Source: a virus. From it: a stretch of DNA of 35,923 nt. The position numbers were made by a program, and so were the translations under genes. The DNA is taken from positions 1 through 35,923 of IMG/VR virus record IMGVR_UViG_3300032516_005718. The stretch is one strand, 5' to 3'. Under the pieces are notes generated by a model, which was not told where the DNA came from, did not search any database, and saw only the letters and a list, made by a program, of their open reading frames with translations. This document shows, in pieces, positions 5,062 through 35,923 of this stretch (its first letter is position 1; the number at the start of each line of letters is the position of its first letter).

Positions 5062-5973
5062 TTATGTCATCGCTTTCCAACCGTCGTAGCTGTGCACACA
5101 CTGACCGTGAAACACTGCATCGCTCGCCACTTGAAACGCGCTTGAGATCGCGGCGTGCTCGGTTTCCATCGCGGCCTTCGTCATCCCGAAATAGGTGATA
5201 TAGGCCGGCGAAACGTTGGTCGTCTCGGAGCCTGCGAGCAACGCGAAATTTCTGCCTTCGATTTCCGCGTAGTCGTACCACGGTTGGAAGAGACTGATTT
5301 GTCCGGGGCCGTCTTGCTGATTGTCCGCAGCGTGATTGCGATAGGTGCCGACTGCAACGAGGTCGGCGGTATCCATCAAATGCGCGCCGTCTTGCTGCGA
5401 GATTCCATTGTAGGAAATGCTCGCGCGGGTGCCCGTCGAATCCTTCAGATAGAACGCCGCGAAGAGCCCGACCGGGAGAGCCGAGAGCTCTTTGATGCTC
5501 TTCACGAGGTCGCAAAGCCCGGCGCAATTTGCTTCTGCCGGGTAGGCGTTCGGGTCGGTCCAGTACTCGACATCGAGCATGATCCCCTGAAACCGTTGCG
5601 TCACATTCGGCACGATTAGGTTGTAGTCGCAGATTGGTTTGATGATGTTCTTCTTCACCCACGATTGATTGAGTCCCCAATCGGCATTTCCGGCGAGCGC
5701 CCAAACGTTGATTCCTGATTTGCTCGCCGCGTCGATGAGCGTTTTCATTCGCGTCACGTTTGCGGTCGTCCAGTTTCCGCCGCCGAGGTAGCGCCAGATA
5801 TCCAAGAAAATAGTGTTGCAACCATTCGTTCCACAAAAGTTGATGAGCGCCTGAGAATTCGCATCGCTGTAGAGCGGATCTTGTGATGACACTCCTGTCA
5901 CCCAAGCCCAAAGCGCGCGCATGAAATTACTATTCGGGGGAACTGGTTTTGTCGCGAGAGGATTCACTGCCAT
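5062..5973 (-). CDS. TIM-barrel glycoside-hydrolase-like tail protein, possible depolymerase, 303 aa
   Basis: Begins MAVNPLATKPVPPNSNFMRA; AAGGAGAAG lies before the ATG. The body alternates strands and helices as in a TIM barrel: NTIFLDIWRYLG, MKTLIDAASKSGINVWALAG, then FQGIMLDVEYW, with Asp134 and Glu136 at the end of a strand where barrel glycosidases keep catalytic acids. Further strands are LPVGLFAAFYL, ADLVAVGTYR and NFALLAGSET. Barrel hydrolases of unknown substrate carry a similar LD.E.W motif. Placed among tail-tip genes, it could trim capsule, exopolysaccharide or another surface glycan. Substrate, mechanism and even activity are unproven; a carbohydrate-binding barrel without catalysis is possible. 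Confidence 0.6.
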   Translation of the reverse strand: MAVNPLATKPVPPNSNFMRALWAWVTGVSSQDPLYSDANSQALINFCGTNGCNTIFLDIWRYLGGGNWTTANVTRMKTLIDAASKSGINVWALAGNADWGLNQSWVKKNIIKPICDYNLIVPNVTQRFQGIMLDVEYWTDPNAYPAEANCAGLCDLVKSIKELSALPVGLFAAFYLKDSTGTRASISYNGISQQDGAHLMDTADLVAVGTYRNHAADNQQDGPGQISLFQPWYDYAEIEGRNFALLAGSETTNVSPAYITYFGMTKAAMETEHAAISSAFQVASDAVFHGQCVHSYDGWKAMT

Positions 5974-5991
5974 TTGTTCTTCTCCTTGCAG

Positions 5992-6933
5992 TCAGATTTC
6001 GTAAAACGAAAATGAAGCGAAAGATACGCCAGCGGTTGCGGAGTCTGCCCGAACAATCATCTCGAGTCGAGTCAATCCTGTTATTTTGTAGGGCACCGTG
6101 AATGGAATGAAGAGCGAGTCACTCGTGTTTGATAGTCGTTGAAGCGGCCCGATTTGAGGCGCGTAAGCGTTGGCATTCAACGGATTCACCGCCGTCATAT
6201 AGAGACGATAACTGTTGCCGAAACATCCGGCATTGAGAGATGTAATGTAGCAGATCTTCCCCGCGCCAACGTAATGGTGAGCGTACCAAGTCTCGCCATC
6301 GCCAATCGCGATTGTCGAGATTGCAGAACCGCCTTTGTCTATCGCAGAGTAAAGCGTGATCGTTCCGAGATTGGTTCCGTTTGCACCAATAGTTAAACTC
6401 TGAATTCTCTCGATGAAGCGCATGGTCGCGGAAACGGTATTCACGCCAACGGTTCCCGCCAGAGTTAAATCCTCTGTGAATGGACCCGCGCCCGAATCAT
6501 CGTAGTAGGTGATTCTCACGGTGCGTGTACCGCCGCCGCCCGATGAATCGCCGCCCGCGGTCGATGCAATTGATCTGCGCGCCGAGCTCGTCGGCTCGAC
6601 GTACCCGGTCGACCTCAACAGTCTTGGAGTTGTCGCCGACGTATCGGTATAGCCTGACACTGTTTGTGAATTGAGGGAGACGAGCGGGATATTGGGGCTG
6701 ACTCTAAAATTACCTTGAAGGCGAGCATCGTCCATCGAGTTTACAGCGATGCCCGCCGTCTTATAGGTGCTCTCAAAATCAGTGACGTCTGCTGAAAGTG
6801 AAATCGCGCAAGAGACAAAAAATTGATCTGCGGAAACATAGATTCTATAGCCGGAGCCAAATGCCTGATAAAACCAAGGGAGCTTGGCAAAAAGTGTTTT
6901 TATCGTCGTATAGTCAACATTTAAATCTTGCAT
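5992..6933 (-). CDS. tail-tip structural protein of unknown fold, 313 aa
   Basis: Begins MQDLNVDYTTIKTLFAKLPW, with GAGGGG seven bases before the ATG. The first third is mixed; a glycine/serine hinge (AGGDSSGGGGTR, about residues 126-137) leads to a beta-rich half with repeated strands (VRITYYDDSGAGPFTEDL, SLTIGANGTNLGTITLYS). It ends SFASFSFYEI. Such Gly-rich linkers between domains are typical of fibre and adhesin proteins. It lies in a block of similar beta-rich genes, so a surface-exposed baseplate or fibre role is likely. No family is recognised. Confidence 0.6.
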   Translation of the reverse strand: MQDLNVDYTTIKTLFAKLPWFYQAFGSGYRIYVSADQFFVSCAISLSADVTDFESTYKTAGIAVNSMDDARLQGNFRVSPNIPLVSLNSQTVSGYTDTSATTPRLLRSTGYVEPTSSARRSIASTAGGDSSGGGGTRTVRITYYDDSGAGPFTEDLTLAGTVGVNTVSATMRFIERIQSLTIGANGTNLGTITLYSAIDKGGSAISTIAIGDGETWYAHHYVGAGKICYITSLNAGCFGNSYRLYMTAVNPLNANAYAPQIGPLQRLSNTSDSLFIPFTVPYKITGLTRLEMIVRADSATAGVSFASFSFYEI

Positions 6934-12800: not shown

Positions 12801-15590
12801 TCATAAAGCGGAATAAAGTTTTGACGCGCGCCATTTGAATGATCGAAATCTTACTATGGGGGCCGTAAGAGCACCATCGAATCGAGTTTTGATTCTTAAG
12901 CTTGGCGTCGGAATCGAAACTGATTCTACTGCGGCGGGCATTGAATAACGAAGGACGCTGGCGTTTAGCGTGTCCATCAAAAATGTAACGCCCGCCGGAT
13001 TGATACAAATTCGATAGGTGTGCCAATTTGAATCGAGTGCATGCGCGAGCACATGTCGCGTGCCGGCGCCATTGACAAATGTCCAGTACGCCCCATCTAA
13101 GGCGATGTCCGCCGAGAAGACTATTTTCTCAGGAGTGGATGGATTGAGAATTTCAAAATCAAATCCCTTGCCGACCGCGGTCATATTCTCGAGCTTGAAA
13201 ACGAATTCGATAAAGCAACCCGCGCTCGTCGGATTCAAAAATACTTGAGAGCAAGATGGACCCCAAAGCAGCATAGTCGTGTCACCAGGGGCGTTATTGT
13301 TCGCCATAATCTTCAGAGTCATATCTGTATCAACTATTAGTACACCTCCAGGTATTCCATAATAACTTCTGAACCAGCGCCATACTGCCTCGCCCGGAAG
13401 AACAACGTCGCTAGGTATTTTATTAAGCGTCCAGTCATCATCCTGCCAAATGAATCCTTCTGACACTTCCCGTAAATCCTGCTCTGGGAAAACGCTCACG
13501 TCGGTGATGGCAATCGTCTCGGCGCCCGCTCCTGTTTTTTCGTAACGCCATGTGAATCTGTGAAATCCTGCCGGCAGTGGATCTGAAACATACATTCCGC
13601 CGCCATCGTTGCTTGTTGTGTCGGGCGTCGCAAAAACGGTTACGCCATCGATGAACAATTTCAATCTTCCAGAGCTTGAAGTCGTGCGGAACGAAAACAC
13701 TAGGCGTGAAGCGGAATTCAAAATGACTTTCAAACCGAGCGAACTGTTTTGACCGGAAGATTGCCCTGTGGGGCGACCGCACGTTGTATGCGAGCCGCTC
13801 GGATAAACGTTGTTCGATTGCGCTTCCCACGCGAGGTCGGTCAAGTAGTCACTCGAAGGCGATTCCCAAAGACCATTTATTGAGGGCGGCCAAGAAGCGA
13901 AACGCTCTCGACGAGGCAGAGCGAATTGTTGTTTCAACGTTGTGTCGGCCGCTTGTAGCGTCTGAAGATTCACAGCGGAGGTGCCGTATAACGGGTTGGC
14001 GACACCCCAAATTTGTTGGGGCGTCATAGCACCACCAACCGAATTGAGTTCACCCGTAAAAGCATTGATTTGCCACTTACTGTTGAGCGTTAACTTACCG
14101 ACCCCCACGCCGCCCGTTCCCTCTGCTTTGATATCAATTATTCCGGTTGATTGATTTGCCGTAAGTCTTAAATCTCGAGAGATACCGTCGGGGCTCCAAA
14201 TGACTAGGTCACCCTCATTCGATGACTTGGAGATTCCGACAACCTTCACATTTTGAGAGCGAACTTCCACATCCGGCCAGCCATCAATAAATGTCACCCA
14301 TCCCGAGTCGTCGACACCAAACGTTCCCTTCGTGTTCCCTGGTGTGGTGAGAGTAATTTCGGTGATCCCTGTGGCGCCAACATCGGTTGTGAATTTGACT
14401 GTGTTTGCTCTTGACTGCCAGTCAAATCGCATTTCGGTTGCAACGCCGAACGCCTCCGAGAGTTTCCAATTCGGCCAGTTAATGTTGACCGACCCGTTGA
14501 TTCCAAGATTGCTTGAGAGTTGTCCGACGCCATCGAAATGACCGAACTCGTCGACCTTGAAATACTTGACGCTCGTCGAGCTCTGAACCTCGAAGATGTT
14601 CACAGACTGTGCAGCATGCGCTTTTACAATGAGAGGGGTGACTGTGCCCGCGCCTGCCAAAAACATCACATCGCCCGTGAATGGAGTCGGGCTTGCCGCA
14701 TCGATTCGTTTCGCGGCCGTGAGCGTGCCGCCCGGTCCAAAAATAACATAGGGCGCACCAATCGGAGTGATATCCGCGCCGCCGACGCCGTCGACCATGA
14801 CGTCATAGTACCCGGCGCCGATGACGTTCATGATACTGCCTACCTGCCTGCGTAGCGTGCCCGGCGCGGTCGAGAGCGCTCCTGTGTCACTGACGAAGAG
14901 CGTATCACCAGCGACGCCCGCAGCGCCTGTGACGAGGGTGTTCGCAAGGCGCCCGACATAGCGAGCTCGACAGAGAGCGTTCAGCGCGGGCGTTCCTCCC
15001 CCAACGACTGCGCCCTCCATGACAAAAATGAGCTCATCGATTTTGCCGAGGGTCGTTGCATCGCAAAGCGTAAAATTCGGGACGGTCTCTTGGCCGGGTA
15101 AACCTGTTTTGATGACCGACCCGCCCGCCGCTCGGACGCACGTTCCCTTCGAGAGCCCCGTTGCGCCGGCGACTCCGACGATGATCGCGGGGTCTGCGAG
15201 CCAGGAATCCATCGCTCTCAAGAGCGCATTCATCGAGGTCGCCCAACCGTCGCTCGTGTCCGCTTGGGTCGTCTCGCCCGCCGCCGGAATGCGTTGTCGG
15301 CTTTTCACTTGCCGAATTCCGACGACGACAGAATCGCTTTGCTCGTCGGGCAACCCGAGATTGATCGTCACTTTGACGAGATAGGTTCCCTCTTTCTTCG
15401 GCGTGAAACTCGGATTTTGAATGATGAGAGAGCTCAACGCGTCGGCGGTTCCGGGCGGTTGATCGAGAATCGCCCACGAATAGGTGCTCTCACCGCCGAT
15501 GTTTTGGTTGTTGAGTTGCACGAGCGTATTGATCGTGACGTCATCGTTCGAGCCGATGATCCCGTTCACAAGAATTTTTGCTTGCGGCAT
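12801..15590 (-). CDS. large modular adhesin-like tail protein with PKD-like and lectin-like domains, 929 aa
   Basis: Begins MPQAKILVNGIIGSNDDVTI; the first ~95 residues look like a PKD/Ig fold (YSWAILDQPPGTADALSS, FTPKKEGTYLVKVTINLG). The middle (residues 130-600) is Gly/Ala/Thr rich with repeated short strands (GVFGVDDSG-like and SPDGISRDLRL segments), fitting a fibre shaft. Around residues 640-750 there is a carbohydrate-binding-like domain (KLFIDGVTVFATPD, GFHRFTWRYEK, AITDVSVFPE). The last ~200 residues look like a LamG/concanavalin A sandwich (FVFKLENM, SNWHTYRICINPAGVTFLMD, IVRFRSFKWRA). This architecture suggests a receptor-binding fibre recognising cell-surface glycans. Longest protein in the window. 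Confidence 0.7.
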   Translation of the reverse strand: MPQAKILVNGIIGSNDDVTINTLVQLNNQNIGGESTYSWAILDQPPGTADALSSLIIQNPSFTPKKEGTYLVKVTINLGLPDEQSDSVVVGIRQVKSRQRIPAAGETTQADTSDGWATSMNALLRAMDSWLADPAIIVGVAGATGLSKGTCVRAAGGSVIKTGLPGQETVPNFTLCDATTLGKIDELIFVMEGAVVGGGTPALNALCRARYVGRLANTLVTGAAGVAGDTLFVSDTGALSTAPGTLRRQVGSIMNVIGAGYYDVMVDGVGGADITPIGAPYVIFGPGGTLTAAKRIDAASPTPFTGDVMFLAGAGTVTPLIVKAHAAQSVNIFEVQSSTSVKYFKVDEFGHFDGVGQLSSNLGINGSVNINWPNWKLSEAFGVATEMRFDWQSRANTVKFTTDVGATGITEITLTTPGNTKGTFGVDDSGWVTFIDGWPDVEVRSQNVKVVGISKSSNEGDLVIWSPDGISRDLRLTANQSTGIIDIKAEGTGGVGVGKLTLNSKWQINAFTGELNSVGGAMTPQQIWGVANPLYGTSAVNLQTLQAADTTLKQQFALPRRERFASWPPSINGLWESPSSDYLTDLAWEAQSNNVYPSGSHTTCGRPTGQSSGQNSSLGLKVILNSASRLVFSFRTTSSSGRLKLFIDGVTVFATPDTTSNDGGGMYVSDPLPAGFHRFTWRYEKTGAGAETIAITDVSVFPEQDLREVSEGFIWQDDDWTLNKIPSDVVLPGEAVWRWFRSYYGIPGGVLIVDTDMTLKIMANNNAPGDTTMLLWGPSCSQVFLNPTSAGCFIEFVFKLENMTAVGKGFDFEILNPSTPEKIVFSADIALDGAYWTFVNGAGTRHVLAHALDSNWHTYRICINPAGVTFLMDTLNASVLRYSMPAAVESVSIPTPSLRIKTRFDGALTAPIVRFRSFKWRASKLYSAL

Positions 15591-15618
15591 AGAGACCCCC
15601 TAAGAGCCAATTCACCTC

Positions 15619-16779
15619 TTATAAATACCGCATCGGGCAACAAATCTCCCAGATCCAAGAGCCCGGCGAACCGGAAACATTGTAGCGGTCGCCTGTGAAC
15701 GTCACGTAAGGCTGACCGACATCGACATCGATGATTCCTGCGAGCGCCGATTTTTCGCCGGTCGTGATTCGAGCGACCGTTGCCTCTGACAGATTGGCAA
15801 GCGACGTTCCAGAATTCGGTTTCACCTGGCCGATGGGGTACGCGTAAATCTGCGCGGCCCCGAGCGTCCATGTCGGCGGGTTGTCGGCGACAGTCGCGGC
15901 CTCGCCGGCGAAAATATAGAACCGCATTTGTCCGCCGGAAGGAGCGAGTGATCGAGCGGCGAGTCGCACGCCGGCGGGAGCAACCGGGTAGTCGTAAAAC
16001 GTCACCGCATCGGGAGCGCCCGGCACCTGCAAAACCTTGAACGCGATCGAAGCCGCGTTGTCGGGCCAGAGTAGACGTCGACGATCCTGAACGTTGTTTT
16101 GATTGATGGCGGGTGAAGCGCCGCTCGAATAGACGATTGCCAATCGAGTGTAACCTGCCGTTGTCGCGGGCGGGAGCGCCGAGCCGATGGTCGCGGCGGT
16201 TCCCTTTTTCAAACTGATTCCTGCTGTGCTTGAGCTCGGCGAGGTGACCGTGCCGTATCGAGTCGAGTCAAGAACGTACGAGAGCGTTTTGAAAACCAAT
16301 TGAGGACTATAAATCTCCGCAACCGGGTCATAAAAATCTCGACTCGCAGAATCCTGCCGGCGAACGTCGAGTTTTACCTCGATGATATCGTAGCGCTCGT
16401 TCCCAGCACCCGGCGCAGGAATTGGAATCGTGAGCGCGGCGGGCATGTAGACCGGATAAAAATTCGCAAGGTCGAGAAGCCCCGCGACCGCATCGATTGG
16501 AGTTGCGCTTCCAAGAGCGCCAAAAATAAAGCCGAGCCCAGGCTGAATGAAAACATTCGCCGAGCCATTTGTAGTTACAAAAAAACTATCTCCGATAAAT
16601 CCTGAACGCGGTGTGAAAGATGAGACGCCCGCCTGATTGGCAAATTGAGAGTGCGGTAAGAAAAACCCACGCATGATTTCTTTAATCATCAGATCTACTT
16701 GTGAAAAATGCTGGTTGAGGTCACTTGAGAGCGGTCGTTCTTTTGGATTCAAAATTGTTCTGTCGAAAGCGTTGTTCAT
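15619..16779 (-). CDS. tail/baseplate structural protein, 386 aa
   Basis: Begins MNNAFDRTILNPKERPLSSD, with GAGAGGG upstream. The N-terminus (ERPLSSDLNQHFSQVDLMIK) looks like the attachment part of baseplate-linked proteins. Then come FIGDSFFVTTNGSANVFIQPG, a pattern seen in phage tail proteins carrying a coordinate-like beta domain, and NERYDIIEVKLDVRR, found in many baseplate-associated proteins with a long beta region. The C-terminal part ends SWIWEICCPMRYL. Probably a fibre-network or baseplate-periphery component that connects wedge and fibres. Confidence 0.6.
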   Translation of the reverse strand: MNNAFDRTILNPKERPLSSDLNQHFSQVDLMIKEIMRGFFLPHSQFANQAGVSSFTPRSGFIGDSFFVTTNGSANVFIQPGLGFIFGALGSATPIDAVAGLLDLANFYPVYMPAALTIPIPAPGAGNERYDIIEVKLDVRRQDSASRDFYDPVAEIYSPQLVFKTLSYVLDSTRYGTVTSPSSSTAGISLKKGTAATIGSALPPATTAGYTRLAIVYSSGASPAINQNNVQDRRRLLWPDNAASIAFKVLQVPGAPDAVTFYDYPVAPAGVRLAARSLAPSGGQMRFYIFAGEAATVADNPPTWTLGAAQIYAYPIGQVKPNSGTSLANLSEATVARITTGEKSALAGIIDVDVGQPYVTFTGDRYNVSGSPGSWIWEICCPMRYL

Positions 16780-16780
16780 T

Positions 16781-18028
16781 TTATTGCCCTCTCAATACGA
16801 TGGCCGCCGAAGACCCGGCCGCTTTTATTTGTTGAAGTGAATCATAAAGACTTTTGTACGCTGCGCGTCTTGGAGCATCATAACCGTCATAGCAGCCGAG
16901 TTGATAACCAGAACTTCCGACGTTGATCGGAATATCATAGGCGCTCAAGCCACGTTTTCCTTTGGTGATGCTGCTATAAAGGTCGTTCGCATTGATCGCG
17001 GTATCGTCAAAAATCATTCCCGAATCTGCTATTGGCTGCATGTTTTCGAGAACGATAATAACGCCGCCGCGATGGTCGACTTCATCGAGCCAGCGATTTC
17101 GGAATGGAATGTTATCGACATCGGGATCGTCATAGACAAAAAGATTGGGATCGAATGACGACCCTGCCGATACCTCGGCGGGCGCATCGTAACAAGTTTG
17201 GTATGCGGTATCCCAAGTCTCAATAAGCGTAAAACTCGAGTGAAAAGGTTCCATCGTTTGCTTCGCCAATCGACTGATGGCGTCAATACTAACAGTGTCA
17301 GGAAGCAAACTCACACGAGATCGATAATTTGGATCGGCGTCATTCTGGTTGCGCGCAATTCCTCGGTCGAGTCCGAGTTGGTCGAGCGCCGCATCTCGCC
17401 CGCCACTCGTGGGAAGAATCTGTCGAACCTCAAAAGTGAGATCGCCCATTTGTGGATCTTCGACAAGATCTTTGATTGTGTCGATATCGCCCTCGAGAGT
17501 AGTGCCATCCGCCGCGAGAGCCTCGCCTAAAACGTTGTACTCGTACCCGACTGCGACCGCCTCGATGTCGACCGTAAACGGTCCGATATCGCTCGCAAGA
17601 AAAGTCACATCGACGAGCGTTTTGAAATCGCGTCCCGTGCGGCTCGTGCTGACAATCGTTCCCGCCTTGATGACAACGTCAATTCCCTCTGCGTTGGGAG
17701 AGCCACGAGCGAAGAGCACCTCTCCGGTCGCCTTCACGCCGCCCTTGGCTGACGTGATGAGCGCGTCCGCTCCCAGTCGCGCGACCGCCTCCGACATCCT
17801 CGATGCAAGTTTCGCGTAGGCTTGAAGTACCTCGTAACCGGGTCCCGGATCTTTCAGAGCGGAAAGCCAATGATCGGGAAAGAGCCGGTCGAACATGTCG
17901 AGGATTTCTTGCTGTGTGAACGACGTGATGGGCGGCGGAAGTTCGGGAACGATTCCCGCCGAGGGAGCAATCAAGGGGCTCGCCGGAATCGTGCCACCAA
18001 CCAGCGTCCAACTGTACGGGGTCGGCAT
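16781..18028 (-). CDS. second baseplate J-like wedge protein, 415 aa
   Basis: The start overlaps the upstream stop (TAATG). After a helical start (QEILDMFDRLFPDHWLSALK) comes a beta domain at residues 98-170 that follows the J-family plan: GEVLFARG, DVVIKAGTIVSTSRTG, FTVDIEAVAVGYEYNVLG. Then GGRDAALDQLGLDRGIARN and DPNYRSRVSLLPDTVSIDAI match the J middle domain (D..YR.R....PD.v...AI). The C-terminus carries a less typical region. A separate canonical J-like gene lies at 21290-22498, so two J-like wedge proteins are present, as in T4-like baseplates built from gp6 and gp53 relatives. Confidence 0.65.
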   Translation of the reverse strand: MPTPYSWTLVGGTIPASPLIAPSAGIVPELPPPITSFTQQEILDMFDRLFPDHWLSALKDPGPGYEVLQAYAKLASRMSEAVARLGADALITSAKGGVKATGEVLFARGSPNAEGIDVVIKAGTIVSTSRTGRDFKTLVDVTFLASDIGPFTVDIEAVAVGYEYNVLGEALAADGTTLEGDIDTIKDLVEDPQMGDLTFEVRQILPTSGGRDAALDQLGLDRGIARNQNDADPNYRSRVSLLPDTVSIDAISRLAKQTMEPFHSSFTLIETWDTAYQTCYDAPAEVSAGSSFDPNLFVYDDPDVDNIPFRNRWLDEVDHRGGVIIVLENMQPIADSGMIFDDTAINANDLYSSITKGKRGLSAYDIPINVGSSGYQLGCYDGYDAPRRAAYKSLYDSLQQIKAAGSSAAIVLRGQ

Positions 18029-19164
18029 TAGAGATTCTCCGTCCCTTCTCGGTCAATCGCAAATGGCTGAATGGTCGGCGACTCGGGCCAGCCACCTGTT
18101 CTCAGAGCGCTGTAGCGAAACCCGTTTGCGATGCTCGCAATAGAATTGTAAGGGCCTCGATAATTCGGACCAAACGCGTACCCGTCGTGAATAATCTCTC
18201 GAATGCCAAGCGCTCTGAAATCGGCAATCAGAATGATGCGTGTGAAGAGTCCCGAATTGTCGGTCACGCTGAACTCAAGTGGCGTCGACGCGGTGATCGA
18301 GGTTCCCGGCGCGGGGCTAAAACTTCCGACAACAGGCGGCGTAGGAGTCGGCGGAGGTGTTGGGCCGCTCGTTCCCCACGGATTGATCACGAATGAATTG
18401 AGCACGCGGAGTTCAGCGTCCGCTCGGATCTGGTTGTTGGTTCGGACAACATTGCTGAATCGAATGTCGTCGAGAGCGCCATGGAATAAATTATCGGGCG
18501 GGTAGGGATCCTGTCCTCTGCCAAACAGACACCAATTCGCGTTGATGCCGCCGTCTGCATTCGTGAGCCCGGTAAAAATGCTCTTCAAGTTTCCGTCGAT
18601 GAAAATCTCAACTTGCGTTCCAGAGTTGCTTTTCCGAATCGCGACATGGTGCCAATTTGCATCGACCGGAACGCCAATTCCGACCGGCGTTTCAATCTCA
18701 ACTGAACTGCCTGTGTAATACCAAACACACCGAATTCGTCGAATGAGCGACGCCTCGACATTGGGGTAAAACGTGTCAGTGTTTTGTGAAATCACACTCA
18801 AAAAATCATTCGGCAAAAGTGAAACATCAAACAGAGTGTTATCGTCATCGGACAGCCAAGAGTGAGCGAGACTGATAATCGATTCGTAAGAGCCAGAACT
18901 TCCTGGTCTGCTGAATGGCTGAACGAAGAACTCAAGCGTCCAGTCGCCTCGAGCGGCCGCGCGTGCGGTCGCGTCTGCATTCGCTGACAGTGTTGCGGTA
19001 TTTCGATTGCTGCGAGCCGCGCCGAATCTTCCATAGATTAGTGAGAGCGGCACCGCCGATGGCGTGAGCGTATAGATTCCCGTCGCGTCGGCATAGGAAA
19101 CCGGCTTGAGCACTTCCTCGTCGAGGCGCCAAAGAGCAATGGTGTTTGCATCTAGTGAATGCAC
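18028..19164 (-). CDS. LamG/concanavalin-like protein with Pro-rich linker, 378 aa
   Basis: A GTG start (19164) follows AGGAGAACTT. Residues about 5-255 form a LamG-like sandwich: TIALWRLDEEV, DWTLEFFVQPFSRPG, DANWHHVAIRKSNSGTQVEI, IFIDGNLKSIF, then the hallmark GALDDIRFSNVVRTNNQ. A proline linker (PTPPPTPTPPVV) leads to a second beta domain (FSPAPGTSITASTPLEFSV, REIIHDGYAFGPNYRG, GGWPESPTIQPFAIDREG). LamG domains usually bind carbohydrates or other surface molecules, so this is a likely receptor-binding or stabilising component at the baseplate rim. Confidence 0.7.
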   Translation of the reverse strand: MHSLDANTIALWRLDEEVLKPVSYADATGIYTLTPSAVPLSLIYGRFGAARSNRNTATLSANADATARAAARGDWTLEFFVQPFSRPGSSGSYESIISLAHSWLSDDDNTLFDVSLLPNDFLSVISQNTDTFYPNVEASLIRRIRCVWYYTGSSVEIETPVGIGVPVDANWHHVAIRKSNSGTQVEIFIDGNLKSIFTGLTNADGGINANWCLFGRGQDPYPPDNLFHGALDDIRFSNVVRTNNQIRADAELRVLNSFVINPWGTSGPTPPPTPTPPVVGSFSPAPGTSITASTPLEFSVTDNSGLFTRIILIADFRALGIREIIHDGYAFGPNYRGPYNSIASIANGFRYSALRTGGWPESPTIQPFAIDREGTENL

Positions 19165-19172
19165 AAGTTCTC

Positions 19173-21281
19173 CTATACCTCTAGCGCAACGGGCCCAATT
19201 TCAAAGTTTCGAGAATCTCGCAATCGATTCTTGAGATACGGTGAGAAGCTAAAAAAGTATTCGCTGTTTCTGAATTCGTATCTCGACGGCCTCAGATTCT
19301 CAGGGTTGCTCAAAAAGTTGGCGGTCCATATTCCAAACAATTCACCAACAGTGTTATACGAGTTTAGCGCAGGGTTGTTCTGAGAAAGTTGCAGCCCCGA
19401 GATCACTCCTACGCTGCGCTTTCCGAATGAACCTGCCTTGTCTTTGCTGATGAGCGGCGACGCATGATATAAATCCGCTTCCCCCGAGAAGTAGAAACCG
19501 TTTTCCCCTCGCAAGGCGCAAAACATCTGGCAGTCATTTCCGACAACCGCGCCCGCGATATCCTGCCCGATAAGCACGCCCGCGCTATAGGAATGGCAGA
19601 CCGTATCGAGAACGATTTGATTCGAGGTCGGCACTTGCGTAATGCGGCAAACCTCGCCGCCGCCCGCTACGTAGGGTTGCCCTTTCGCTTGCGGCACCAC
19701 ACTTGCCGTCGGGTCGTAGATCTCAACGAAGTCGCCGGCGACAAGACTCGTGGTTTCTATCAGCGTGACAGTAACGTTTTTCCCATTCCCGAATCCTGAA
19801 CTAGCAGTGAGTTTTTCTGTCTTCATATACGAATTGTAAAATCCCGCGTAGGCCCAACGCTGAATCGAAGGGCCTGCATCGGGCAACCAATGCGAGACAA
19901 CAGAAATGAAATCCTTATTGCCGACTGCCTCGATATTTATCTCGATGCTCCGAGGCAGATAGAGCGCGCCCGCATAGGTTCTCAACCAAGTGAACGGCGT
20001 AACTCCCAGCGGTAAATCAAACTCGAGTTTTTGCCAGGTGTCGTTCGTCGCGTTCCACGTGGAAATCGCCGGCGACCAAAGATTGTTCTCGATATCGTAC
20101 GAGTGAAGAATCGAGGGAGCGCCATCAACATCGAGAAAGAGCCCAAAAATTGTTCCTCGATTTCCGACTGTCGGGTCGAGCCAGAGTCTTGCCAGCGTAT
20201 TCGACACGGGAAGGTTTGCGATCCCGGTCGGCGATGTGGTCCAAGTATCGGTTACAACGTCGTAGCGACTCCACGTTGCAAACCCAATTCCCTCGAGGAA
20301 CGAAGCATAGATTTCGTCGTGTGCATGTCCGCTTAGAGTTGCGGGCACGTACACCATTTGTGAATAGTTGACAGAGTTACTATCGGGGGGCCAACTCGAG
20401 ACGAAGGGCACAATCGCAAGCGACGTCCAGAGGCCGGTCGAGATCGTGTACTTTGCAAAGGGGCTTCCGTCTGTCCCGCTCGGCGTTTCGCCTTTCGCCA
20501 TGTAAATCGTATCCGCGCCATCCCATGCCCACGGACGATAATCGAATTGAAAATCTCCCCAAGGCGGGTCGGCAAGCGCAGAGGACCAAGAGTTATTTTG
20601 AACGTCGTACGAGTAAAACACAGAGTAAAGAGGATTCCATCTGTCTTTCACCATCACCCACAAATGCTCTGACCCGTCCGGTTTGTTTGTGAGAATCAAA
20701 AGATTGTTTGCGCCGAGGTCGGCAGTAGTCGGAGGTTGACAGATAGCTGTAATGTCACAGGTTGTGAAGTCGTAGAATAAGATGCCCGTCATCTCGCGAC
20801 AAATGAAATACACGCCGCGCCCATTGAAAGCCCACGAGCTCGCGGCGGGTGCGACGAAATCAGAAAAGAGATTCGGTTGTACAGAGTACTGTTCGCTTGC
20901 CGGGAGGAAGAGTCCGAGTTTTTGAAGATAGCGTCGAGTGCCCGCGCATGGACCAACAAAAATTCTTGGGCCGATGCGGCCGGTCTCTCCTTTGCCGGTA
21001 TGCGTTCCGGTGCTCCAACTTCGATAGATTCTGAAGACGATGTTTTCCTGATTGCCGATTGGGTTGCTGCCGGGCGCCTCATCGAAGACGTTCATCGTCA
21101 TGCGCACGTAGATCGTGGGGCGCGCGATGTCTTGGCCGGCGATTGAGTAAACCTTATCTGTCGCGGTGAGTGTGTCGACGAGAGTCCACCCGAGATCGTC
21201 TGTCCCGACTCCCTCGATCCACGCCGCGAGTTGCCCGAACAAATCGGTGGGTGACGTTGCGGTTGTGCGTAGTCTGCCCAT
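19173..21281 (-). CDS. kelch-type beta-propeller tail protein, 702 aa
   Basis: Begins MGRLRTTATSPTDLFGQLAA. Residues about 145-420 carry kelch-like repeats with the Y.....W signature: FYSYDVQNNSWSS, YTISTGLWTSL, SRYDVVTDTWTTS, HSYDIENNLWSP, NATNDTWQKLEF, separated by 45-70 residues, consistent with a six- or seven-bladed propeller. After it come Ig-like strands (VTVTLIETTSLVAGDFVEI) and a C-terminal region ending SPYLKNRLRDSRNFEIGPV. Kelch propellers mediate protein or glycan contacts. Sitting between the J-like and LamG genes, it is probably displayed on the baseplate. Unusual for a phage wedge cluster. Confidence 0.7.
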   Translation of the reverse strand: MGRLRTTATSPTDLFGQLAAWIEGVGTDDLGWTLVDTLTATDKVYSIAGQDIARPTIYVRMTMNVFDEAPGSNPIGNQENIVFRIYRSWSTGTHTGKGETGRIGPRIFVGPCAGTRRYLQKLGLFLPASEQYSVQPNLFSDFVAPAASSWAFNGRGVYFICREMTGILFYDFTTCDITAICQPPTTADLGANNLLILTNKPDGSEHLWVMVKDRWNPLYSVFYSYDVQNNSWSSALADPPWGDFQFDYRPWAWDGADTIYMAKGETPSGTDGSPFAKYTISTGLWTSLAIVPFVSSWPPDSNSVNYSQMVYVPATLSGHAHDEIYASFLEGIGFATWSRYDVVTDTWTTSPTGIANLPVSNTLARLWLDPTVGNRGTIFGLFLDVDGAPSILHSYDIENNLWSPAISTWNATNDTWQKLEFDLPLGVTPFTWLRTYAGALYLPRSIEINIEAVGNKDFISVVSHWLPDAGPSIQRWAYAGFYNSYMKTEKLTASSGFGNGKNVTVTLIETTSLVAGDFVEIYDPTASVVPQAKGQPYVAGGGEVCRITQVPTSNQIVLDTVCHSYSAGVLIGQDIAGAVVGNDCQMFCALRGENGFYFSGEADLYHASPLISKDKAGSFGKRSVGVISGLQLSQNNPALNSYNTVGELFGIWTANFLSNPENLRPSRYEFRNSEYFFSFSPYLKNRLRDSRNFEIGPVALEV

Positions 21282-35268: not shown

Positions 35269-35592
35269 TCAAGCCTGTTTTTCTAGTTTCACACCTGCGG
35301 CAAGAAGTTTTTCGATTGCTCCCGGCCCATAACTCGAATCGTCGACGAGCGTGTCCTTCGGCAAAAAAGTGATATGGCCGTTGAAGGAAACGATCTTCGC
35401 CTCGAGCACCAAATATCTTCCCGTCAATGGGGCGGGCTGCACTAGCGGTGGCTCGACAGTGGGCTCGACTTTCGGAGGTGAATCCTCTTTGAGCAGTCTG
35501 GCAATTTCAGCCGGGCTTTGCGTTTTTACAACGGGAGGCGCATAAATTTTATTTTCCAATTTTGTCTCCTCGACCATTCGAACCTTGGCCAT
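35269..35592 (-). CDS. hypothetical virion-region protein, 107 aa
   Basis: GGAGG lies seven bases before the ATG at 35592. It begins MAKVRMVEETKLENKIYAPP, has a proline/glutamate-rich middle (KVEPTVEPPLVQPAPLTG), then a beta-rich end (RYLVLEAKIVSFNGHITFLP) and a short helix (GAIEKLLAAGVKLEKQ). Position just upstream of the connectors suggests a head- or neck-associated accessory. The flexible middle may tether two small domains. Not recognised. Confidence 0.6.
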   Translation of the reverse strand: MAKVRMVEETKLENKIYAPPVVKTQSPAEIARLLKEDSPPKVEPTVEPPLVQPAPLTGRYLVLEAKIVSFNGHITFLPKDTLVDDSSYGPGAIEKLLAAGVKLEKQA

Positions 35593-35629
35593 TTTGTGCC
35601 TCCGTCAAGAGTTAAAAAAGATGACAGGA

Positions 35630-35709
35630 GATACGATTCGCGATTTTTCATATCCGATCTTTGGTCCCCGATCGTGGGGGAAGAATCTGAAAAACAATCG
35701 AATCGTATC
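35630..35709 (-). repeat. 80-base imperfect inverted repeat upstream of the first complete late gene
   Basis: GATACGATTCG (35630-35640) pairs exactly with CGAATCGTATC (35699-35709). Inside, TTTTTCA pairs with TGAAAAA, then GAT-CTT with AAG-ATC around a bulge, then CCCC with GGGG. About 28 base pairs could form one long hairpin. On the minus-strand RNA it ends roughly 37 bases before the ATG at 35592, with a run of six Ts about ten bases beyond it. It could be an RNA control or processing element, or a protein-binding site. Confidence 0.65.
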
Positions 35710-35820
35710 CCAGGAATTATGCCGAGAGGAATCACGCTCCGAGGAGTGAGAATCTTCTATGGCGCCCCATGAGCACTGACGAGAAGTGACCGACTTCGCG
35801 TGCAAGTTCATCTGTCGATT

Positions 35821-35887
35821 GTTGCTCTTGCGGTTCCATGGCACGAAGCCAGGGTTTGCGAGAGCAACGGATGGGGCACGAAGCCCC
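35821..35887. repeat. two adjacent hairpins with the same ACGAA loop
   Basis: GTTGCTCTTGC (35821-35831) pairs with GCGAGAGCAAC (35858-35868), eleven positions with one G-U. Inside it TGGC-ACGAA-GCCA forms a smaller stem. Five bases further, GGGGC-ACGAA-GCCCC (35873-35887) forms a second stem. GGCACGAAGCC is repeated exactly at 35840-35850 and 35875-35885. Confidence 0.55.
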
Positions 35888-35923
35888 GAGTTCTCGATCT
35901 TTGCGTGAGCGTCTTGGTAGATG

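Follow-up and report, generated by a model that had tools for sequence, protein, structure and literature searches.

A conserved structured RNA behind the major capsid gene in a clade of uncultivated phages

From a single operon, phages produce capsid subunits by the hundreds but only a few connector proteins, and how they do so is an old question. The locus described here ties this question of dosage to an RNA structure. It lies at the right end of a 35,923-nt stretch of viral DNA (the window; IMG/VR record IMGVR_UViG_3300032516_005718, positions 1 to 35,923), where a first-pass annotation, made from the letters alone, had noticed a long hairpin ahead of a late head-tail operon and had listed an antitermination-type RNA, an RNase III processing site, an attenuator and a protein-binding site as its possible roles. 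We asked what this hairpin is part of, which phages carry it, and what it may do.

RESULTS

The locus and its hairpin

The record is a 35.9-kb viral contig of a contractile-tailed phage, as judged from matches to a neck protein, a sheath, a tape measure and baseplate proteins. Since the operon runs leftwards from the window's right end, the transcribed strand is the minus strand. Near-identical contigs (L006, L007, L004, and L008) reach past the window end and reveal that the gene upstream of the hairpin, just outside the window, encodes a 470-aa major capsid protein (phrog_1357), with a weak scaffold-protein match in front of it. In L006, the capsid gene and the next gene are 509 nt apart (5492-6000), and the last 331 nt of this gap are inside the window (Table 1). 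Elsewhere in the window, at 12801-21281 on the minus strand, large baseplate and tail genes (929 and 702 aa) have weak family matches or none, and the sheath has no relative in 50,697 phage records.

Table 1. Features of the locus, in window coordinates
Feature	Position	Strand	Description	Support
Next gene	35269-35592	-	107 aa, without family match; first complete gene of the operon; start about 35 nt after the arm	
U-tract	35614-35619	-	UUUUUU, directly behind the RNA	
Structured RNA, in-window part	35605-35923	-	Equals L006 5670-5988	Fold z -3.9, 0/100 shuffles
Terminal arm	35628-35711	-	Outer stem, 35699-35711 with 35628-35640	Folding, stems of relatives, compensating pair
Inner stem	35644-35694	-	UUUUUCA (35688-35694) with UGAAAAA (35644-35650), 7-8 pairs	Folding, relatives
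Apical H-type pseudoknot	35655-35681	-	S1, UCCCC (35677-35681) with GGGGA (35665-35669); S2, CGATC (35670-35674) with GATCG (35655-35659); loop 3, CCAAA	Permutation test, blind finder
Proposed closing helix	35812-35816 with 35623-35627	-	5' strand GACAG with 3' strand CUGUC	Analogues in relatives, permutations
Motif hairpin	35821-35868	-	Variable outer stem, G-C, C-G, symmetric internal loop AAAC/AACC, CC/GG, bulged U, variable apical stem	Covariation, covariance model

The inverted repeat was recovered at exactly 35630-35709, with 7 to 8 inner pairs and an outer stem whose core has 11 pairs (GATACGATTCG/CGAATCGTATC), or 13 when extended with a G.U pair. The pairing exceeds chance, as the annotation had supposed: folded as RNA of the minus strand, the operon's coding strand, the hairpin reaches -28.7 kcal/mol (z -3.5), and none of 200 shuffled sequences folded as well, versus 5 of 200 for the plus-strand RNA (-27.5 kcal/mol, z -2.5).

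Compensatory changes, by which the annotation had proposed to judge the hairpin, are abundant among the relatives. Only two bases of the 88-nt arm distinguish the window from L004; they are partners in the outer stem and turn a T-A pair into an A-T pair. Over larger distances, the arm has 6 to 18 outer pairs, and the stem sequences differ by lineage yet stay complementary (GGGATACGATTCG/CGAATCGTATCTC in the window, TGGGGGATGTTCC/GGAACATCCCCCG in L005, TGGGGCGAGGTACG/CGTACCTCGCCCCG in L015). When the two sides of the terminal-arm stems were matched, own pairings scored at least 20 in 23/30 cases and cross pairings in 86/870. These stems also contain 18 G.U pairs versus 2 A.C mismatches (binomial P = 0.0004), as expected for an RNA of the capsid strand; the asymmetry is absent from the outer stem of the motif hairpin described below (5 versus 9).

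A larger structured RNA with a conserved motif hairpin

We then folded the entire gap between the two genes. Its z score was -5.4 in L006 and -5.7 in the distant relative L005 (0/100 shuffles as good in each), and the separate minimum free energy folds of the two gaps yielded the same pair of hairpins, a motif hairpin followed by the long terminal arm. In an alignment of 33 distinct motif hairpins (A4), the covariation score was 0.504, versus 0.123 after shuffling (0/500 as good); 88.5% of the cells pair, versus 66.9% in column shuffles and 36 to 39% in slid controls, and 95 cells are changed on both sides where 33.5 were expected. The covariance model of this hairpin (R1) matches the window at 35820-35869 (E = 2.4e-11). 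A helix that would close the structure has analogues in relatives (GGCGGC/GCCGCC, GTGGC/GCCAC, GATGG/CCATC, and GGCAGC/GCTGCC), with modest support (37/5000 permutations as good).

These results show that the hairpin forms the 3' arm of a structured RNA, conserved and strand-specific, which occupies the space from the major capsid gene to the following head gene. The annotation's placing of a functional RNA structure ahead of the operon gene is supported, but the hairpin that it described is the terminal arm of something larger, which it could not see because the 5' part (about 180 nt) lies beyond the window end and the rest shows only against relatives.

An open frame of 105 codons (35605-35922, minus strand) crosses the whole in-window RNA and extends to 144-145 codons in L006 and L004. 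It appears fortuitous, judging from the relatives, because their motif segments (28 to 33 nt) give all three remainders modulo 3 and so share no common frame.

The tip of the arm as an H-type pseudoknot

Four helical segments, of 11, 7, about 6, and 4 pairs, had been drawn in the hairpin. The outer two are confirmed; of the inner part, the CCCC/GGGG helix is real, but the relatives show its loop base-paired with the stretch that follows (CGATC/GATCG). A C-run/G-run helix is present at the arm tip in 31 lineages, and the last bases of the loop that it encloses pair with the sequence behind the helix: CGATC/GATCG in the window, CGGTC/GACCG in L005, CGGCA/TGCCG in L014, CACCGT/ACGGTG in L015, and CTGACCG/CGGTCAG in L066. 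In 23/31 lineages, five or more Watson-Crick pairs form with the lineage's own tail, versus 3.3 lineages on average and 10 at most over 2000 permutations of the tails; the anchors were mostly chosen by the outer C/G helix, those of L030, L064, and L105 with the pseudoknot already known. A blind pseudoknot finder discriminated single loci from shuffles only moderately, which made the permutation test necessary. Pairing of a loop with the sequence 3' of its stem, kept by compensatory change, defines an H-type pseudoknot, and the tip is better read as such than as nested helices. Nested folding misses it because it cannot draw this type of pairing. By eye, the same topology with other stem sequences is seen in L025, L037, L039, L060, L065, L071, and L082. 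In L088 (409-640 after the capsid stop), a second, motif-like hairpin (CTGCTCGTAAACCTTGGGCTTTTAGCCTGGTTTGAACC) occupies the expected place of the pseudoknot and is possibly a diverged or replaced tip.

Distribution among phages

We scanned 2.9 million viral contigs with two queries, the capsid protein, which gave 127 relatives (80 kept), and the motif sequence, and obtained 112 loci with a placeable capsid end. Every motif match whose apical stem is paired sits 3' of a capsid gene of this family and on the capsid strand; the few other matches to the pattern have neither the pairing nor the capsid gene. On a capsid-protein tree of 75 phage lineages and two isolates, the RNA was scored as present in 52 lineages, absent from 17, and in an undetermined class in 6, from gap length and structures and partly by eye. 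Its distribution needs 7 changes on this tree, versus 17 with shuffled labels. By these comparisons, the RNA is carried by dozens of uncultivated phages of one clade, and the simplest reading is that of an ancestral element that would have been lost several times. Of 25 records searched with the motif-hairpin model, ten were matched, each with a single copy, and none of the ten RNA-less records gave a match. With a single copy per genome, one place, and a distribution that follows the capsid tree with losses, we rejected a recent mobile element as the main reading.

Among isolates, the relatives are Streptomyces phage Kromp and Komagataeibacter phages phiKX1/2, whose capsid proteins are 29 to 32% identical; Kromp and phiKX1 have almost no gap behind the capsid gene and thus no room for the RNA, and blastn found no similar DNA in isolate phages. 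One scan of 85,000 bacterial and archaeal species genomes returned a sole relative (L134 5001-7351), on a 12.8-kb contig of an Armatimonadetes fen MAG, which may reflect either an Armatimonadetes host or a misbinned phage. By eye, the gap in L134 ends in a pseudoknot-like variant.

Searches with cmscan of the window end, the L006 and L005 gaps, L059, L061, and L102 against Rfam 15, which includes GOLLD, ROOL, and OLE, gave no family match, only subthreshold chance matches such as sR41 (15 bits, gathering score 54). We found no description of such an RNA in the part of the literature that was covered.

Plain terminators in lineages without the RNA

An intrinsic (rho-independent) terminator consists of a G+C-rich hairpin with a run of U at once behind it. 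The arm departs from this definition in that its U-tract is displaced, beginning 8 nt beyond the extended stem, or 10 nt beyond the core of 11 pairs. No promoter and no canonical terminator was found on the hairpin, and a terminator scan of the window returned no site on the minus strand. Among 22 relatives, 16 have three or more consecutive T behind the arm; the run is missing in some lineages (L021 and L069). From the arm to the next start codon, the distance is 17 to 35 nt in most relatives.

Terminator-like sites within 120 nt of the capsid stop were present in 10/17 RNA-less and 4/51 RNA-bearing lineages (Fisher P = 4e-5, relatedness not corrected), a contrast that leans partly on two RNA-less clades. 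RNA-less lineages such as L022, L026, L027, L035, L038, L052, L056, L068, and L070 have gaps of 77 to 149 nt, in most of which a simple intrinsic terminator follows the capsid gene. Farther downstream, in the 3.3 kb behind the junction, we counted 2 terminator-like sites (intrinsic terminators only) in 147 kb of RNA-bearing lineages, and such sites are rare in both groups alike.

DISCUSSION

A proposed boundary of the capsid message

We propose, with a probability of roughly 45%, that the RNA is a cis-acting boundary element of the capsid message, involved in partial 3'-end formation or processing and in mRNA protection. Of the roles listed at first, those of attenuator and processing site fit best, together with this one of a boundary. 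The RNA would be transcribed together with the capsid gene and fold while emerging; RNA polymerase would partly stop, or the transcript would be cut, at the U-tract, and the folded RNA, still attached, would provide the capsid message with a stable 3' end, so that far more capsid than connector protein would be made. Where the RNA was lost, a plain intrinsic terminator would often fill the same place. We infer this role from the terminator contrast, the T-run behind the arm, the arm-to-start spacing, and the scarcity of downstream terminators; the long retention of the RNA, with repeated loss, adds to it. Several observations weigh against such a boundary: the U-tract, at least 8 nt behind the stem, does not make a canonical terminator and some lineages have no U-run; the closing helix that would bring the structure up to the U-tract is only modestly supported; two RNA-less clades supply part of the terminator contrast; and 200 to 500 nt with conserved unpaired motifs far exceed the needs of a terminator or a 3' cap.

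That last point keeps the main rival close behind. The sequences might instead encode a free-standing large noncoding RNA, cut or terminated from the late transcript, accumulating to the level of the capsid message and acting in trans, through RNA assembly, as a ribonucleoprotein, as a host-factor sponge or possibly as a ribozyme; the operon would merely supply strong late expression. We take this possibility seriously without favoring it. Its proximity is due to the size of the RNA and the conserved internal loop, and its complexity, the unpaired AAAC/AACC motif, the conserved 3' and variable 5' parts, the end at a U-tract, and the nonessential character implied by repeated loss all suit it. 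GOLLD and ROOL are phage RNAs of this style (PMC12286853). Such independence sits poorly with an RNA that was never found away from the junction of the capsid gene and the next gene, that ends at a tightly kept distance from the following start codon, whose presence trades off with a plain terminator, and which matches no Rfam family. It is less likely than not, in our judgment, that we are dealing with large phage RNAs of a new class, each a functional machine by itself (whether an RNA assembly, a ribozyme that processes itself, or a host-factor-capturing ribonucleoprotein), brought to capsid level by riding on the capsid transcript, and with an element that was ancestral in a wide clade of uncultivated phages. 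If the RNA does act freely, it would join the few large phage RNAs of unknown role, such as GOLLD and ROOL.

The tight spacing of 17 to 35 nt would also suit a leader of the next gene, in which the arm, or a protein or ribosome bound to it, controls initiation at a start codon some 25 nt farther on. HNH genes insert between the capsid gene and the RNA, and no gene was seen inserted between the RNA and the next gene, as such a leader would have it. We nevertheless consider this improbable: the Shine-Dalgarno sequence is outside the arm, most of the conserved sequence (the motif hairpin) lies about 100 nt upstream of the arm start in the window phage, and the next gene stays in place when the RNA is lost.

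Processive antitermination of the put/EAR type, in which RNA polymerase would be modified to read through the remaining late genes, was among the first suggestions and is very unlikely. The location inside a long operon speaks for it, as does the precedent of put RNA of HK022, a nascent phage RNA that acts on polymerase (PMC9378689), but with 2 terminator-like sites in 147 kb (3.3 kb per RNA-bearing lineage) there is little to override over that span, and no Rfam family matches.

The tendency of a 324-nt segment to fold well in either direction hardly lends credence to a chance palindrome or a DNA-level element (a protein site, an origin, or a mobile-element end), since covariation and permutation tests exclude a chance hairpin, the pseudoknot, the G.U/A.C asymmetry, and the fixed strand disfavor a DNA palindrome, and the symmetric sequence constraint that a DNA role requires is not seen.

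Relation to known RNAs

We rate the capsid-side RNA as a candidate new family, GOLLD/ROOL-like in style and kept apart from both because it matches neither model. GOLLD is a large, elaborately folded RNA of phages and prophages, with pseudoknots and a 3' region more conserved than the 5' region, and ROOL is an ornate phage-encoded RNA with many stems and pseudoknots and without a known protein partner (PMC12286853). The capsid-side RNA resembles GOLLD in these respects but lies in the head operon instead of near tRNAs and is usually about half as long; it is ornate like ROOL, with stems and pseudoknots, but has other motifs and another genomic place. Compared with the intrinsic terminator frequently found behind the major capsid gene of RNA-less relatives, it has the same position and a U-tract behind the structure, but it is 200 to 500 nt long, pseudoknotted, and endowed with conserved loop motifs, and its U-tract is not flush with the stem. 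Like HK022 put and EAR, it would be structured as it is transcribed, within a phage operon or a long operon, but it is larger, differently built, and followed by almost no intrinsic terminators to override in the 3.3 kb scanned.

With an anatomy that is precise and testable, and always at one site of the head operon, the RNA adds a structured family in a clade nearly all uncultivated. Its repeated loss, often with a plain terminator instead, amounts to a natural experiment, and its function is directly testable.

The junction also receives other genes. HNH-type endonuclease genes are inserted between the capsid gene and the RNA in L014 (3375-4526, by family match) and L100 (by sequence features). 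HNH-like genes are found behind the capsid gene in L087, which belongs to the undetermined class, and behind the next gene in L021 and L030.
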